Below the pieces are notes generated by a model. The model was not told the DNA's origin, did no database searches, and was given only the letters and a program-made list of their open reading frames with translations. Positions 10,728-55,094 of a DNA stretch of 64,000 nucleotides are shown here, in pieces. The position numbers were made by a program, and so were the translations under genes. This DNA comes from Cognatundibacterium rivi (GTDB taxonomy: Bacteria > Pseudomonadota > Gammaproteobacteria > Burkholderiales > Burkholderiaceae_D): the NCBI RefSeq assembly GCF_018139565.1, contig NZ_JAGSPK010000006.1:186001-250000 (forward strand), read 5' to 3'. Within the stretch, counting starts at the first letter, position 1; every line of letters starts with the position of its first letter.

Positions 10728-12209
10728 TTATTTTTTCTTGTGATCAGATTTGCCGTCTTTGTCGGTTTTCTCTGATTTTTCCGCACCGTCTTTTGCTGCG
10801 TCTTTGGTTTCTTTCACTTCTTTTGGCTCAGTCACTTTGACCGGCAAGCCTTTCAGATGATTCAGTGCCTGTGCTAACTGGAAATCTTCTTTGCTGCCGT
10901 ATTCCAGTGGTTTGCTTTTCTTGGCCAGGGCCAGCAGGCGTTGTTCTTCTTCGAGTTCATCGACTTTCGGGCGGACAACTTCTTTTTCTTTGTCGTTCGT
11001 CAGATGCTTTTGCAAATCTGATTCACGTGCGCGGAAACTGTTGAAACCATCGCCTTCGGCTGTTTCTTCTACATTCAGATCAGGCACGATGCCTTTTGCC
11101 TGTATCGAGCGGCCGTTTGGTGTGTAGTAGCGCGCCGTCGTCAGTTTGACTGCAGTATCAGCAGAAATCTGGCGTATGGTCTGCACAGAACCTTTACCGA
11201 AACTCTGGGTACCGATCACCGTCGCACGTTTGTAATCCTGCAAAGCACCAGCGACAATTTCAGACGCAGAAGCAGAACCGGTATTGATCAACACGACCAT
11301 AGGCACATTTTTAATGGCTTCCGGTAATTTGGCCAGCGGGTCACCCATTGCGCGGCCTGCATAGTATTCGCGTTTGGCGTAGAAGGTTGCTTTCGAGTCT
11401 GCTAACTGACCATTGGTGGAAACCACTGGCACGTCCTTAGGCAAAAACGCAGCGGAAACACCAACGGCACCTGGCAGTACGCCGCCCGGATCATTGCGCA
11501 AATCCAGCACCAGACCTTTGATTGCCGGGTCTTGTGCATACAAAATCTGGATTTTTTTCGCCATATCTTCGACGGTTGGCTCCTGGAATTGCGAGATACG
11601 CAGCCATGCATAACCAGGTTCCACCATCTTGGCCTTCACACTTTGCTGTTTAATCAGTTCGCGTGTGATGGTGACGATAATTGGTTTGTCTTCTGTTTTA
11701 CGGGCAATCGTCAGCGTAATTTTGGTATTCGGTTCACCACGCATTTTTTTGACGGCTTCATCAAGCGTCATGCCTTTGACTGGCAGCGAATCGAGGCGCG
11801 TGATCAGATCGCCGGGTTTCAAACCCGCACGGTAAGCAGGAGAATCTTCAATCGGGGAAACGATTTTGACATAGCCGTCTTCCATACCGACCTCAATACC
11901 GAGACCGACGAATTTACCTTGTGTGCCTTCCTTTAATTCTTTGAAGGACTTTTTATCCAGATAGGCCGAGTGCGGATCCAGCGATGCCACCATGCCAGAG
12001 ATCGCCTCTGTCAGCAGTTTATTATCATCGACAGGTTCGACGTAGTCAGACTTGATCAGACCGAAGACATCTGCCAACTGGCGCAATTCTTCTACGGGCA
12101 AGGGGTTGCCGGCATTTTTTTGCGCAAGAGCGGAAAACTGCATGGAAACCGCCACGCCAGCGACCATGCCCAGGCCGATTAAACCGAAATTCTTAAATTT
12201 ACTGCCCAT
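10728..12209 (-). CDS. ctpA: C-terminal processing peptidase (S41 family, CtpA/Prc type)
   Basis: A 493-residue periplasmic serine protease. An N-terminal hydrophobic segment (about residues 8-29) acts as signal or anchor. A PDZ domain follows (about 95-175: GLGIEVGMEDGYVKIVSPIEDSPA, GLKPGDLI), then the S41 core with GLVLDLRNDPGG, the Ser region GSASASEIVAGALQDY and the general-base Lys in FGKGSVQT. The last ~40 residues are a Lys/Glu/Asp-rich disordered tail. It lies directly after envC, a conserved arrangement that suggests a joint role in cell-wall remodelling. Confidence 0.92.
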   Translation of the reverse strand: MGSKFKNFGLIGLGMVAGVAVSMQFSALAQKNAGNPLPVEELRQLADVFGLIKSDYVEPVDDNKLLTEAISGMVASLDPHSAYLDKKSFKELKEGTQGKFVGLGIEVGMEDGYVKIVSPIEDSPAYRAGLKPGDLITRLDSLPVKGMTLDEAVKKMRGEPNTKITLTIARKTEDKPIIVTITRELIKQQSVKAKMVEPGYAWLRISQFQEPTVEDMAKKIQILYAQDPAIKGLVLDLRNDPGGVLPGAVGVSAAFLPKDVPVVSTNGQLADSKATFYAKREYYAGRAMGDPLAKLPEAIKNVPMVVLINTGSASASEIVAGALQDYKRATVIGTQSFGKGSVQTIRQISADTAVKLTTARYYTPNGRSIQAKGIVPDLNVEETAEGDGFNSFRARESDLQKHLTNDKEKEVVRPKVDELEEEQRLLALAKKSKPLEYGSKEDFQLAQALNHLKGLPVKVTEPKEVKETKDAAKDGAEKSEKTDKDGKSDHKKK

Positions 12210-52425: not shown

Positions 52426-53379
52426 ATGCATGTCCGTCAACGCGTTTCTATGGCTGTCCTGAGTCTCTTTATCTTGTTAGCAGGTGCTTTGTTTCTGAGT
52501 TTAGCGATCGCCTGGGCACCAGACAAATCTGTCGATGACCTGAAACAAAAATGGGCACCTGCACCTTCAAAATTCATTGATGTGCAAGGCTTGCAAGTGC
52601 ATGTCCGCGACGAAGGTCTGGCGGATGATCCCGTTCCGGTGATGCTGATTCACGGTACCTCATCAAGTCTGCATACCTGGGAACCCTGGGTGAAGGCCTT
52701 GAAGGCCGAGCGCCGCGTGATCACGATGGATTTACCCGGCTTTGGCCTGACCGGGCCGAATCAGGAAAACGACTACAGCACGACGGCGTACGTGCGTTTT
52801 ATTCTGGATCTGATGGATACCTTGCATCTGTCAAAAGTCGTGTTGGGTGGTAACTCTCTTGGTGGCGAAATCGCCTGGGAAGTCGCGGCTGCTGCACCGG
52901 CGCGGATAGACAAACTGATACTGGTGGATGCGGCAGGTTATGCGTTCACACCAAAATCGATACCGGTTGGTTTTCAGATTGCGCGTATGCCGATGATGTC
53001 GTGGGTGATGGATCACTGCCTGCCGCGCTCTATGGTTGAATCCAGCGTCAAGAATGTTTATGCCCGTCCGGAAAAAGTCACGCCAGCCTTAGTTGATCGC
53101 TATGAAGCGATGATGCTGCGGGAAGGAAATCGCCCCGCCTTGCGTCAGCGTATCAGCCAGCTCGCTATCGGCGATCATGCTGAGCTGATCAAAACGATTC
53201 GTGTCCCGACCCTGATACTCTGGGGTGGTAAAGATCAGTTGATACCGCCGGAAAACGCAGCGTGGTTTCAGCGTGATATTGCGAACAGCAAGCTGATTAT
53301 GTTTGACGAACTTGGCCATGTTCCGCAGGAAGAAAATCCCGTAGTCACCGTCGCTGCCGTTCGCATCTTTTTGCAATAA
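52426..53379 (+). CDS. Membrane-anchored alpha/beta hydrolase
   Basis: A 317-residue protein with one N-terminal transmembrane or signal segment (AVLSLFILLAGALFLSLAIA) and an alpha/beta hydrolase domain. It has the oxyanion region MLIHGTSSSLHTWEPW, nucleophile elbow LGGNSLGGEIAW, acid in WGGKDQLIPP and catalytic His in DELGHVPQEE. The substrate is unknown. Cytochrome c follows after 15 bases, so they are probably cotranscribed. Confidence 0.87.
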   Translation: MHVRQRVSMAVLSLFILLAGALFLSLAIAWAPDKSVDDLKQKWAPAPSKFIDVQGLQVHVRDEGLADDPVPVMLIHGTSSSLHTWEPWVKALKAERRVITMDLPGFGLTGPNQENDYSTTAYVRFILDLMDTLHLSKVVLGGNSLGGEIAWEVAAAAPARIDKLILVDAAGYAFTPKSIPVGFQIARMPMMSWVMDHCLPRSMVESSVKNVYARPEKVTPALVDRYEAMMLREGNRPALRQRISQLAIGDHAELIKTIRVPTLILWGGKDQLIPPENAAWFQRDIANSKLIMFDELGHVPQEENPVVTVAAVRIFLQ

Positions 53380-53394
53380 TCTGAGGAGCCCGTC

Positions 53395-53724
53395 ATGTCT
53401 GCTGTTCGCCTGTGTATTTCTTACGGTTTTGTTGCGCTGAGTTTGCTTGGCTCCGGTATTGCTGGCGCCGAAGATGTGATCGCCGAAGGCAAGAAAATCT
53501 TCAATCAGAAAGCCGAACCGAAATGTGCGATGTGCCATAGCCTGAAACATGCGGATTCGTATGCAGAAGGCGGCCCTGATCTGGATGAGCTGAAACCGGA
53601 TGCGGCGCGGGTCGAAAAAGCAGTACGTAACGGCATAGGTGAAATGCCGGTGATTACCGGATTGACTGATGCAGAAATTAAACTGGTGGCGCGCTACTTG
53701 GCGGAAGTCGCCGGTAAGAAATAA
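53395..53724 (+). CDS. Small periplasmic c-type cytochrome
   Basis: A 109-residue protein with a signal peptide (residues ~1-24, cleaved near AGAE) and one haem-binding CAMCH motif. The axial methionine is probably in GIGEMPVITGLTDAEI. This is a class I single-haem cytochrome of the c5/c553 kind. Its ribosome-binding site (TGAGGAG) is strong. The plus-strand RNA downstream holds the structured hairpin modules. Confidence 0.88.
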   Translation: MSAVRLCISYGFVALSLLGSGIAGAEDVIAEGKKIFNQKAEPKCAMCHSLKHADSYAEGGPDLDELKPDAARVEKAVRNGIGEMPVITGLTDAEIKLVARYLAEVAGKK

Positions 53725-53805
53725 GCTGGTAAAAAATAACTCAAGAGTATCTGCACAGGCCTGATGTCTGCGCTGGTTCCGGCCATGTAAAGCAGGGCTG
53801 CAGAT

Positions 53806-53831
53806 AACAAAAAGCCCACCATACGGTGGGC
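53806..53831 (-). terminator. Intrinsic terminator on the minus strand beyond the hairpin modules
   Basis: Perfect GCCCACC/GGTGGGC stem with a 4-base loop, followed on the minus strand by TTTTTG. It would end a transcript running leftward from the cold-shock gene or from the hairpin region. Confidence 0.75.
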
Positions 53832-53846
53832 AATCCATTCATTGCG

Positions 53847-53943
53847 GTGACTCGTCAGCAACCCATGCTATCTGCGTGGTGCCACTGACTGAAACAATGC
53901 CCGTGCTATCTGCGCGGTGCTTGTCGTGGTGAGTCACTTTTTT
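53847..53943 (+). ncRNA. Candidate structured RNA: modules R1 and R2 in a closing stem
   Basis: GTGACTC (53847-53853) and GAGTCAC (53931-53937) form a 7-bp closing stem followed by T6. Inside are two hairpin modules. R1 has outer stem GTCAG/CTGAC and inner stem CCATGC/GCGTGG. R2 has outer ACAA/TTGT and inner CCGTGC/GCGCGG. Both inner loops are TATCT. The stems differ between copies by paired changes, which supports RNA structure. The family is unknown to me. Confidence 0.55.
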
Positions 53944-54117
53944 CTGCGTTGTCAGTCAATACTGGCAACATCAGAGGGCAAAACGAATGCGAACCTTCGC
54001 AAGACCGACCAAGGCATTTTTTCATGACGCACACGCATCAGTAAAAAAGAGATGGACGATTGCATAGCAAAAAGCAGATGCTTTCCAGTGAAACTCACTG
54101 ATCAACTACGCCATTTT

Positions 54118-54155
54118 CCGGTAACCCATACTATCTGTATGGTGCCACCAGCCGG
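54118..54155 (+). ncRNA. Candidate structured RNA: hairpin module R3
   Basis: Outer stem CCGG/CCGG and inner stem CCATAC/GTATGG enclose the same TATCT loop. Flanking AACCC and GGTGCCA match R1. Relative to R1 the inner stem changes G-C to A-T as a pair. No clean closing stem plus T-run was found for this copy. Confidence 0.5.
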
Positions 54156-54232
54156 TGAGAATTGATTGCCGCGTCAGTTAGCTGCGTGAGTGCAGCGTAC
54201 TGGTATGCGAAGGTTTGCTGTAACGGTCAGAC

Positions 54233-54297
54233 TTTGTTCATCAGCAACCCATGCTATCTGCGTGGTGTCACTGGCCGGTATTGCAGAACAAATTTTT
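54233..54297 (+). ncRNA. Candidate structured RNA: hairpin module R4 in a closing stem
   Basis: TTTGTTC (54233-54239) and GAACAAA (54286-54292) form a perfect 7-bp closing stem followed by T5. Inside, outer stem TCAG/CTGG and inner CCATGC/GCGTGG carry the TATCT loop. The arrangement copies that of R1+R2 although the closing-stem sequence is entirely different. Confidence 0.55.
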
Positions 54298-54362
54298 CAT
54301 TACAGCAAAAACGGTTGGCGTTGTTCTGGCAAGCATCGCTTGCCGGAATCTGCCGTGAGACT

Positions 54363-54575
54363 TTAAGCCAGAATCTGGATATTGCCTGCTTTGTCGCCTT
54401 TAGGGCCTGTTGTGCGTTCAAAAGAAACGCGCTGATTTTCGCTCAGACTTTTGAAGCCACTCGATTGAATGTCTTGAAAGTGGGCGAACAAATCTGCACC
54501 ACCTGCATCTGGAGCGATAAAGCCGAAGCCCTTAGCGTCGTTGAACCATTTTACGATACCTGTTTGAGTACTCAT
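54363..54575 (-). CDS. cspA: Cold-shock protein (CspA family)
   Basis: A 70-residue single OB-fold RNA chaperone: [20 protein letters not shown] contains RNP1 (KGFGFI), and DLFAHFQDI corresponds to RNP2 (usual DVFVH; here LFAHF). It ends [11 protein letters not shown]. The ATG at 54575 follows AAAGGAAT; the longer open frame to 54749 is not coding in character. It has a long upstream region (~250 bases), typical of cold-shock genes with a regulatory 5' leader. Confidence 0.95.
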
Positions 54576-55094
54576 GTTTATTCCTTTACGTGAAACATAG
54601 GCGAAATTGCCTTGAGGCACTTGAAACCAAGAAATAAAACCGGAGGAGAAAAAACAGAACAGCCAGAGGATACAGCTATGCGGAATTGGGACCAACAATA
54701 TGAGGACTTGATGCAAGTACGGAACGGAATATACACGGGAAAACAACAATCACCAAACTTTATTTTTAATCTGATCCGGCGTTGATCGCACGAAAGCGCA
54801 ATCTTCCTGCACAAAAAAACGTCAGCTTTTCATAGACAAAACAAGGCTCCGCATCAGGTGTTTAAGTGCTTGTTTTTATTGCGAAAATTAATTAAAAATA
54901 TTTTTTATTGTTGGTGAATTAGAGGATTTTTACGTAGTGTTTTTCATATTCCATATATTTTTTTCATATTTTCTAAGTGAAAAAAGGTCGTTGGGCACGC
55001 GTTGTCCAGCACGTAGCATGAATCCCCATCGCTGCAGTCATTTTGCGGCTGCATCAACAGGCATCCGGTTTGCCAATCACCAAAAGGATTATTC
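54576..55094. other. Divergent region between cspA and a TonB receptor gene
   Basis: 519 bases without a credible gene. The cspA-proximal part probably forms its 5' leader. The part before the receptor (54870-54990) is strongly AT-rich, with TTTTTCATATT repeated twice at about 54940-54975. No Fur-box match was recognised. Confidence 0.5.

Follow-up and report, generated by a model that had tools for sequence, protein, structure and literature searches.

A conserved structured RNA of Oxalobacteraceae in cold-shock mRNA 3′ regions and in standalone units with a predicted PHB-linked promoter

The hairpins that lie beside a cold-shock protein (csp) gene of Cognatundibacterium rivi are, with very little doubt, representatives of a conserved family of structured RNAs encoded on the minus strand of the window (the whole stretch of 64,000 nucleotides that was analysed). 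Comparison of loci shows two genomic forms of this RNA: one occupies the predicted 3′ untranslated region (3′UTR) of csp, and the other is a standalone unit with its own predicted promoter. The RNA constitutes a minus-strand family of the Oxalobacteraceae with one to five rigid hairpins per locus, which often form a closed pair ending in an intrinsic terminator. The standalone form is predicted to be repressed by PhaR/PhbF and hence to be made when granules of the storage polymer PHB accumulate.

Conserved hairpin modules and their distribution

The modules lie in a gap that is bordered on one side by a c-type cytochrome gene (positions 53395-53724, plus strand) and on the other by the csp gene on the minus strand (Table 1). 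A sequence-only reading had proposed four modules, termed R1 to R4, and a pattern search of the window that allowed up to three mismatches returned four matches at the claimed sites and none in 100 shuffles. On inspection, the inner and outer stems are present as that reading had written them, as are two different 7-bp stems, one closing R2 together with R1 and the other closing R4. It had missed that R3 also has its own closing stem, and that pairs which read T.G on the plus strand become C.A on the minus strand. Nor did it mention the minus-strand intrinsic terminator, which is the best terminator in the gap. When the organism's own genome (3.9 Mb) was searched with a loose module pattern, four of the five matches fell at this locus. 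A weak match to the module model at 11456-11502 of the window (plus strand; 15.8 bits, E 0.077) is probably due to chance.

Table 1. Features of the csp locus in the window, numbered from its first nucleotide
Feature	Position	Strand	Evidence or content
csp, cold-shock protein, 70 aa	54363-54575	minus	sequence; Pfam CSD E=4.7e-26; 3′ end toward modules
Predicted csp 3′UTR / structured RNA	53809-54362	minus	stop codon to terminator T-run
R4 unit: module R4 in closing stem 54233-54239/54286-54292	54233-54292	minus	54.2 bits; z -1.7
R4 core	54248-54267		
R3 unit: module R3 on second conserved motif, closing stem 54101-54107/54160-54166	54101-54166	minus	50.3 bits; z -3.4
R3 core	54125-54144		
R2-R1 unit: closing stem P0 (53847-53853/53931-53937) enclosing R2 and R1	53847-53937	minus	z -5.1; module-model scores 29.7 and 51.4 bits
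R2 core	53900-53919		
R1 core	53862-53881		
Intrinsic terminator of predicted minus-strand transcript	53809-53831	minus	GCCCACC-gtat-GGTGGGC-TTTTT

To assess the proposed stems, we used an alignment (A1) of 119 of the 133 representative modules among the matches listed, 14 having been excluded by hand, together with the four from the window. In the minus-strand reading of these 123 distinct modules, paired cells make up 84.6% of the total compared with 69.0% after shuffling, a level reached by none of 500 shuffles. Ten of the 13 pairs are changed on both sides, as opposed to 7.6 in shuffles (two of 500 reach this number), and the covariation score is 0.440, as against 0.174 for shuffled alignments and at most 0.165 for slid structures, although these shuffle controls ignore the relatedness of the sequences. 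The result stands with the excluded modules put back, where 84.9% of cells are paired for all 137 modules and 68.9% after shuffling. The compensatory stem changes that the sequence-only reading proposed are strong.

The module consensus is 5′ outer stem - CACC AYGC-AGAUA-GCRUGG G - outer stem 3′. The loop sequence CAGATAG occurs in 136 of 136 model matches, a constancy that is inflated because the pattern used to collect modules fixes the loop and the model was built from those modules. The sequence of P0 varies between species, yet it pairs within loci: its mean score is 16.0 within a locus and 14.9 between loci, with one of 10000 permutations as good, in a test for which 57 of 85 units were left after filtering and in which some of the best stems use letters of the terminator or of a module.

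Certain 3′UTRs of csp in Undibacterium carry a second conserved motif, which approximates UCUYACCGGC-(any hairpin)-GGAAAAUGGNNUAG and sits within a closing stem that is itself variable. Its apical hairpin is either an AGAUA module, as in the R3 unit, or an unrelated hairpin; there are 23 distinct instances, and the motif was seen at loci L102, L111, L145, L044, L103 and L077. The window also contains a 13-nt inverted repeat (53989-54001 and 54206-54218, 92% complementary, 204 nt apart), which could pair over this distance and so enclose the R3 unit.

The loose pattern matched 34 of 60 related genomes, in some cases by chance. A scan of named genomes, anchored on the pattern that fixes the loop, yielded at least 116 loci. 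Eight of these were dropped before counting: L039, L050, L078, L131, L144 and L150 are from Bacillota, Micromonospora, Clostridia, Rokuibacteriota, Bifidobacterium and Prevotella, the last three of which were set aside before their names were known, and L064 and L098, both from Burkholderiales, may be real. This left a working set of 108 loci among the matches listed, and all locus counts given below have that scope. The genera among these matches are Undibacterium, Massilia, Telluria, Duganella, Pseudoduganella, Rugamonas, Janthinobacterium, Herbaspirillum, Noviherbaspirillum, Herminiimonas and Collimonas, and the remaining loci are in bins labelled Oxalobacteraceae, Burkholderiaceae, Burkholderiales, Betaproteobacteria or Pseudomonadota. 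Massilia, Duganella, Pseudoduganella and Rugamonas are members of the Telluria group, which NCBI taxonomy places, with most of the listed genera, under Oxalobacteraceae. The window genome belongs to the GTDB genus of Undibacterium.

We made a covariance model of the 44-nt module from the 123 distinct modules; within the GTDB family, it matched 99 of the 195 genomes sampled. Eight of 399 genomes matched in a sample of the order, seven of them inside the family, and the only match among 185 genomes sampled across the class was the organism's own genome. One weak match (31 bits) came from a genome outside the GTDB family, G214. At least three genomes of the same genus gave no match within the family sample of 195, and such absences are soft because a search that spans more than 40 genomes applies strict filters and scores just a subset of the candidates. 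Collections of phages and plasmids yielded no match to 53800-54310. The number of modules per locus ranges from one to five, with 78 of the 108 loci carrying two to five and 30 carrying one. The largest number is found at L149, in an unclassified Burkholderiaceae bin.

Strand and genomic forms

The strand is indicated by G-U pairs in the outer stems. The six outer pairs of the 123 modules include 153 G-U cells in the minus reading and 31 in the plus reading; the corresponding numbers are 169 and 34 for all 137 modules, and 83 and 25 when one module is taken from each of 74 loci. Terminators point the same way. In the minus sense, 78 of 102 loci have a minus-strand terminator in the 120 nt that follow the modules, and one of 102 has a plus-strand terminator 3′ of them in the plus sense, six of the 108 loci having been skipped because they offered too little sequence. 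Several of the 24 loci that failed the terminator rule have, by eye, a terminator with five Ts (for example L044 and L102), and none was seen by eye at L038, L073, L114 or L133.

A first count of the inner stem seemed to favour the plus strand, as one pair read TG in 85 and CA in 2 of 194 unique modules, while the other five pairs of that helix gave 7 plus-type and 10 minus-type wobbles. In A1 one inner pair, that of columns 18 and 28 (module pair 4/14), reads on the minus strand C.A in 54, U-A in 41, C-G in 18, G-C in 8 and U.G in 2 of the 123 modules. We nevertheless decided for the minus strand because the outer stems favour it, and we count the 54 C.A cases, the sole feature in favour of plus, against our preferred explanation. 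As the other evidence favours minus, we read this pair as a conserved A opposite a free pyrimidine; the C.A combination may be an A+.C pair, or its base may be read directly by a protein.

Given this evidence, the window copy is most likely the csp 3′UTR rather than a set of plus-strand small RNAs, and its position between the csp stop codon and the terminator fits this assignment. The sequence-only reading had offered a small-RNA family or a regulatory 3′ element; the latter suits the csp-linked loci, and the former is not supported in the shape of plus-strand small RNAs with their own terminators. The family is wider than that reading had proposed, as it includes standalone members whose promoter resembles those under the PHB regulator. 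Fold z-scores on the plus strand (-3.95 for the R2-R1 unit and -2.4 for the R3 unit) are weaker than the minus-strand values in Table 1, whereas the R4 unit scores about -1.7 on either strand. A weaker terminator-like site at 54001-53988 (minus strand) lies between R3 and R2, within the predicted csp 3′UTR. The region 53300-54800 holds three terminator-like sites where 1.9 are expected, and a scan of it returned no sigma-70-like promoter on either strand.

Forty-four of the 108 loci lie 3′ of csp and two lie between csp and infA; these 46 csp-type loci are in a 3′UTR position, on the same strand as csp. In some Massilia they lie 18-24 nt past the csp stop codon. A further 31 loci are beside yihY/brkB, 15 are beside infA alone, and 16 are elsewhere. 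The order csp - RNA - terminator - infA, found at L061 and L139, is perhaps ancestral. Most loci of the yihY and infA types are preceded by a minus-strand promoter that resembles TTTGTGCGNNGCACAAA...TGTGNTAYACT. These standalone units measure 176-275 nt (37 loci), counted from a guessed start through the last T of the terminator. In 24 of them, RNAalifold recovered the terminator and both modules as well as a closing stem, and 19 of the 48 pairs vary on both sides; for nine further sequences (A3), R1 and the terminator were clear, and R2 and P0 were not recovered in the form seen in alignment A2.

A predicted link to PHB control

The promoters of the standalone units carry a palindrome, TTGT(N)GC..GCACAA or a near variant, that together with a -10 element is present in 35 of 46 yihY/infA-type loci, in 4 of 16 other loci and in none of the 46 csp-type loci. 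This palindrome resembles the TG[N]TGC[N]3GCAA sequence reported to be bound by PhbF of Herbaspirillum seropedicae, a protein that acts as a repressor of both phaP1 and its own gene and that in vitro also binds to PHB granules (PMC3206438). The 3′ half-site of the palindrome, GCAC, is one base off the published GCAA.

We searched 12 genomes that carry the standalone RNA for the motif TTGT(N0-1)GCRNYGCACAA. It adjoins a phasin gene in 11 of them and stands at the RNA promoter in nine, plus eight other places; the genomes had been picked as carriers of the RNA, so that the promoter matches are partly a product of choice and the phasin matches are not. Among the eight other places, one is by a PF05597 phasin and one is by a gene taken by eye for cca. 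The reversed pattern, used as a control, had no match in any of the 12 genomes. G798 had no match to the motif, and in G793 and G802 the pattern missed the operators at the RNA, which are variants. Phasin genes were assigned by tblastn with a single phasin (77-100% identity), a 120-aa part of which matches PF09361.

In the window genome (G000), the exact sequence TTTGTGCNNNGCACAAA occurs at one place only, on contig C5, and is found neither near this RNA nor near csp. At C5:640107 (L197), and also at L227, from the genome that carries the Massilia glaciei locus, a PhaR-like palindrome adjoins what by eye are cca and a GNAT-type gene, perhaps another conserved site.

Because the operator is alike and is shared with phasin genes, we predict that the standalone RNA belongs to the PhaR/PhbF regulon, and we consider such PHB control of this form likely. 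That the window genome lacks both the exact operator and a sigma-70-like promoter near the RNA counts against our preferred explanation.

Possible functions and relation to known RNAs

The constant loop and bulged A, set in outer stems that vary and in a copy number that varies, suggest protein-binding hairpins suited to titration. The near-identical hairpins would be binding sites for one RNA-binding protein, for which the RNA would serve as decoy or scaffold. We propose the decoy step, in which the RNA would titrate such a protein, tentatively, and the 30 single-module loci count against it. In Undibacterium, csp transcription would set the dose of the RNA, a role that would fall to the PHB regulator in the Massilia-Duganella-Janthinobacterium group. 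The statement that joins RNA family, strand, PHB control and a decoy or scaffold for a protein has, as a whole, about an even chance of being correct. A fuller version is speculative: PHB granules would titrate PhaR, whereupon the standalone RNA would be made and would soak up the protein through AGAUA hairpins with their conserved A.C-type pair, while Undibacterium and relatives would dose it from the 3′ end of the cold-shock mRNA.

Sequestering RNAs of the CsrB/RsmZ type, which bind CsrA/RsmA, offer a close comparison: they have several near-identical hairpins in varying number and a terminal terminator, and the modules of the present loci, most of which have two to five, are predicted to share one transcript. 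Their hairpin loops contain GGA, whereas here the hairpins have an AGAUA loop with a bulged A and no GGA (loop AGATA in 136 of 136 matches, the collecting pattern fixing the loop). One form of the present RNA is, moreover, a csp 3′UTR, and its protein partner is putative.

A base-pairing small RNA, with the AGAUA loops or a conserved stretch before the terminator as seeds and with release by processing of the csp 3′UTR, is a possible but unlikely alternative. The standalone form does have a promoter, a U-tailed terminator and conserved segments beyond the predicted helices, and its loop is constant while its stems vary. The loop, however, is just 5 nt long and closed by C-G, and the seeds of base-pairing RNAs are not usually repeated as copies of one identical loop. 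Predicted duplexes between the RNA and the phaP leader in 11 genomes had energies near those of shuffles (z -2.4 to +1.6), in a crude test that used mononucleotide shuffles and long duplexes, with phaP as the sole target tried.

Somewhat less probable still is a cis-acting element of the csp 3′UTR, which would act in mRNA stability, in protection from ribonucleases or in termination; the standalone copies would then be by-products of rearrangement. The csp-type loci agree with this, including those in which the modules closely follow the stop codon, but as many loci (46 of 108) are linked to yihY/infA without csp there, 35 of them have the palindrome promoter, and standalone relics should decay.

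A set of plus-strand small RNAs that have separate terminators is very improbable. The T-runs that the sequence-only reading saw behind the two closing stems exist (53938-53943 and 54293-54297), and pair 18-28 would read U.G in 54 of 123 modules; the T-runs are not conserved as terminators in relatives, and we reject the plus strand on the direction of the outer-stem G-U pairs, on the terminator counts and on the promoters of standalone loci. In addition, the closing stem in the window lies 15 nt from the hairpin of the minus-strand terminator, which leaves little room for a plus-strand promoter. Mobile or DNA-level repeats of the REP/BIME kind, which are likewise short, tandem, intergenic palindromes but are scattered through a genome in numerous copies, frequently as pairs of opposite orientation, are rejected as barely conceivable on the single locus in the own genome, the one orientation in which synteny with csp, infA or yihY recurs across genera, the RNA-type covariation and the strand-specific G-U pairs.

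The description of the modules as an unrecognised structured RNA still applies. Rfam 15 gave no match across the whole window at the gathering threshold; at E<=10, four sub-threshold matches fell in 53700-54420, none of them over the modules, and five other loci returned one tRNA only. The cspA 5′UTR thermoregulator (RF01766) is likewise a structured RNA in a cold-shock mRNA, although it is situated in the 5′UTR whereas the present RNA lies 3′ of csp. The toxic small RNA RF02278 is, like the present RNA, a small RNA of betaproteobacteria with several copies per genome, as Hsnc059/063/086/107 in Herbaspirillum seropedicae (PMC7011215). Neither model matched the window or the five other loci. 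In the literature searched, which did not extend to supplements, we recognised nothing as this RNA, and Herbaspirillum alone was represented among small-RNA surveys in that bacterial family. The Northern probes in Table 2 of PMC7011215 have no 14-mer in common with our loci; one of the 117 small RNAs of that study may be this RNA as an unnamed transcript. RNA control tied to PHB/PHA metabolism, as predicted here, is described in other taxa for MmgR (Sinorhizobium), ArrF and the protein-sequestering RsmZ (Azotobacter), and CrcZ/CrcY (Pseudomonas) (PMC9049629), whereas the standalone form of the present RNA is predicted to lie directly under a PhaR/PhbF-like operator.

These findings give the bacterial family of Massilia, Janthinobacterium, Duganella, Herbaspirillum and Undibacterium a conserved RNA that no Rfam 15 family matched. 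The operator common to the RNA and to phasin genes makes control of the RNA directly testable, and the constant hairpin in variable copy number provides a handle for finding the RNA-binding protein. That one RNA should be expressed from either a cold-shock mRNA or a PHB-type promoter is unusual and can be tested. If the RNA does act as a decoy that reports on storage, it would work in the manner of CsrB but through a new protein partner, and would couple carbon storage to the cold or stress response.
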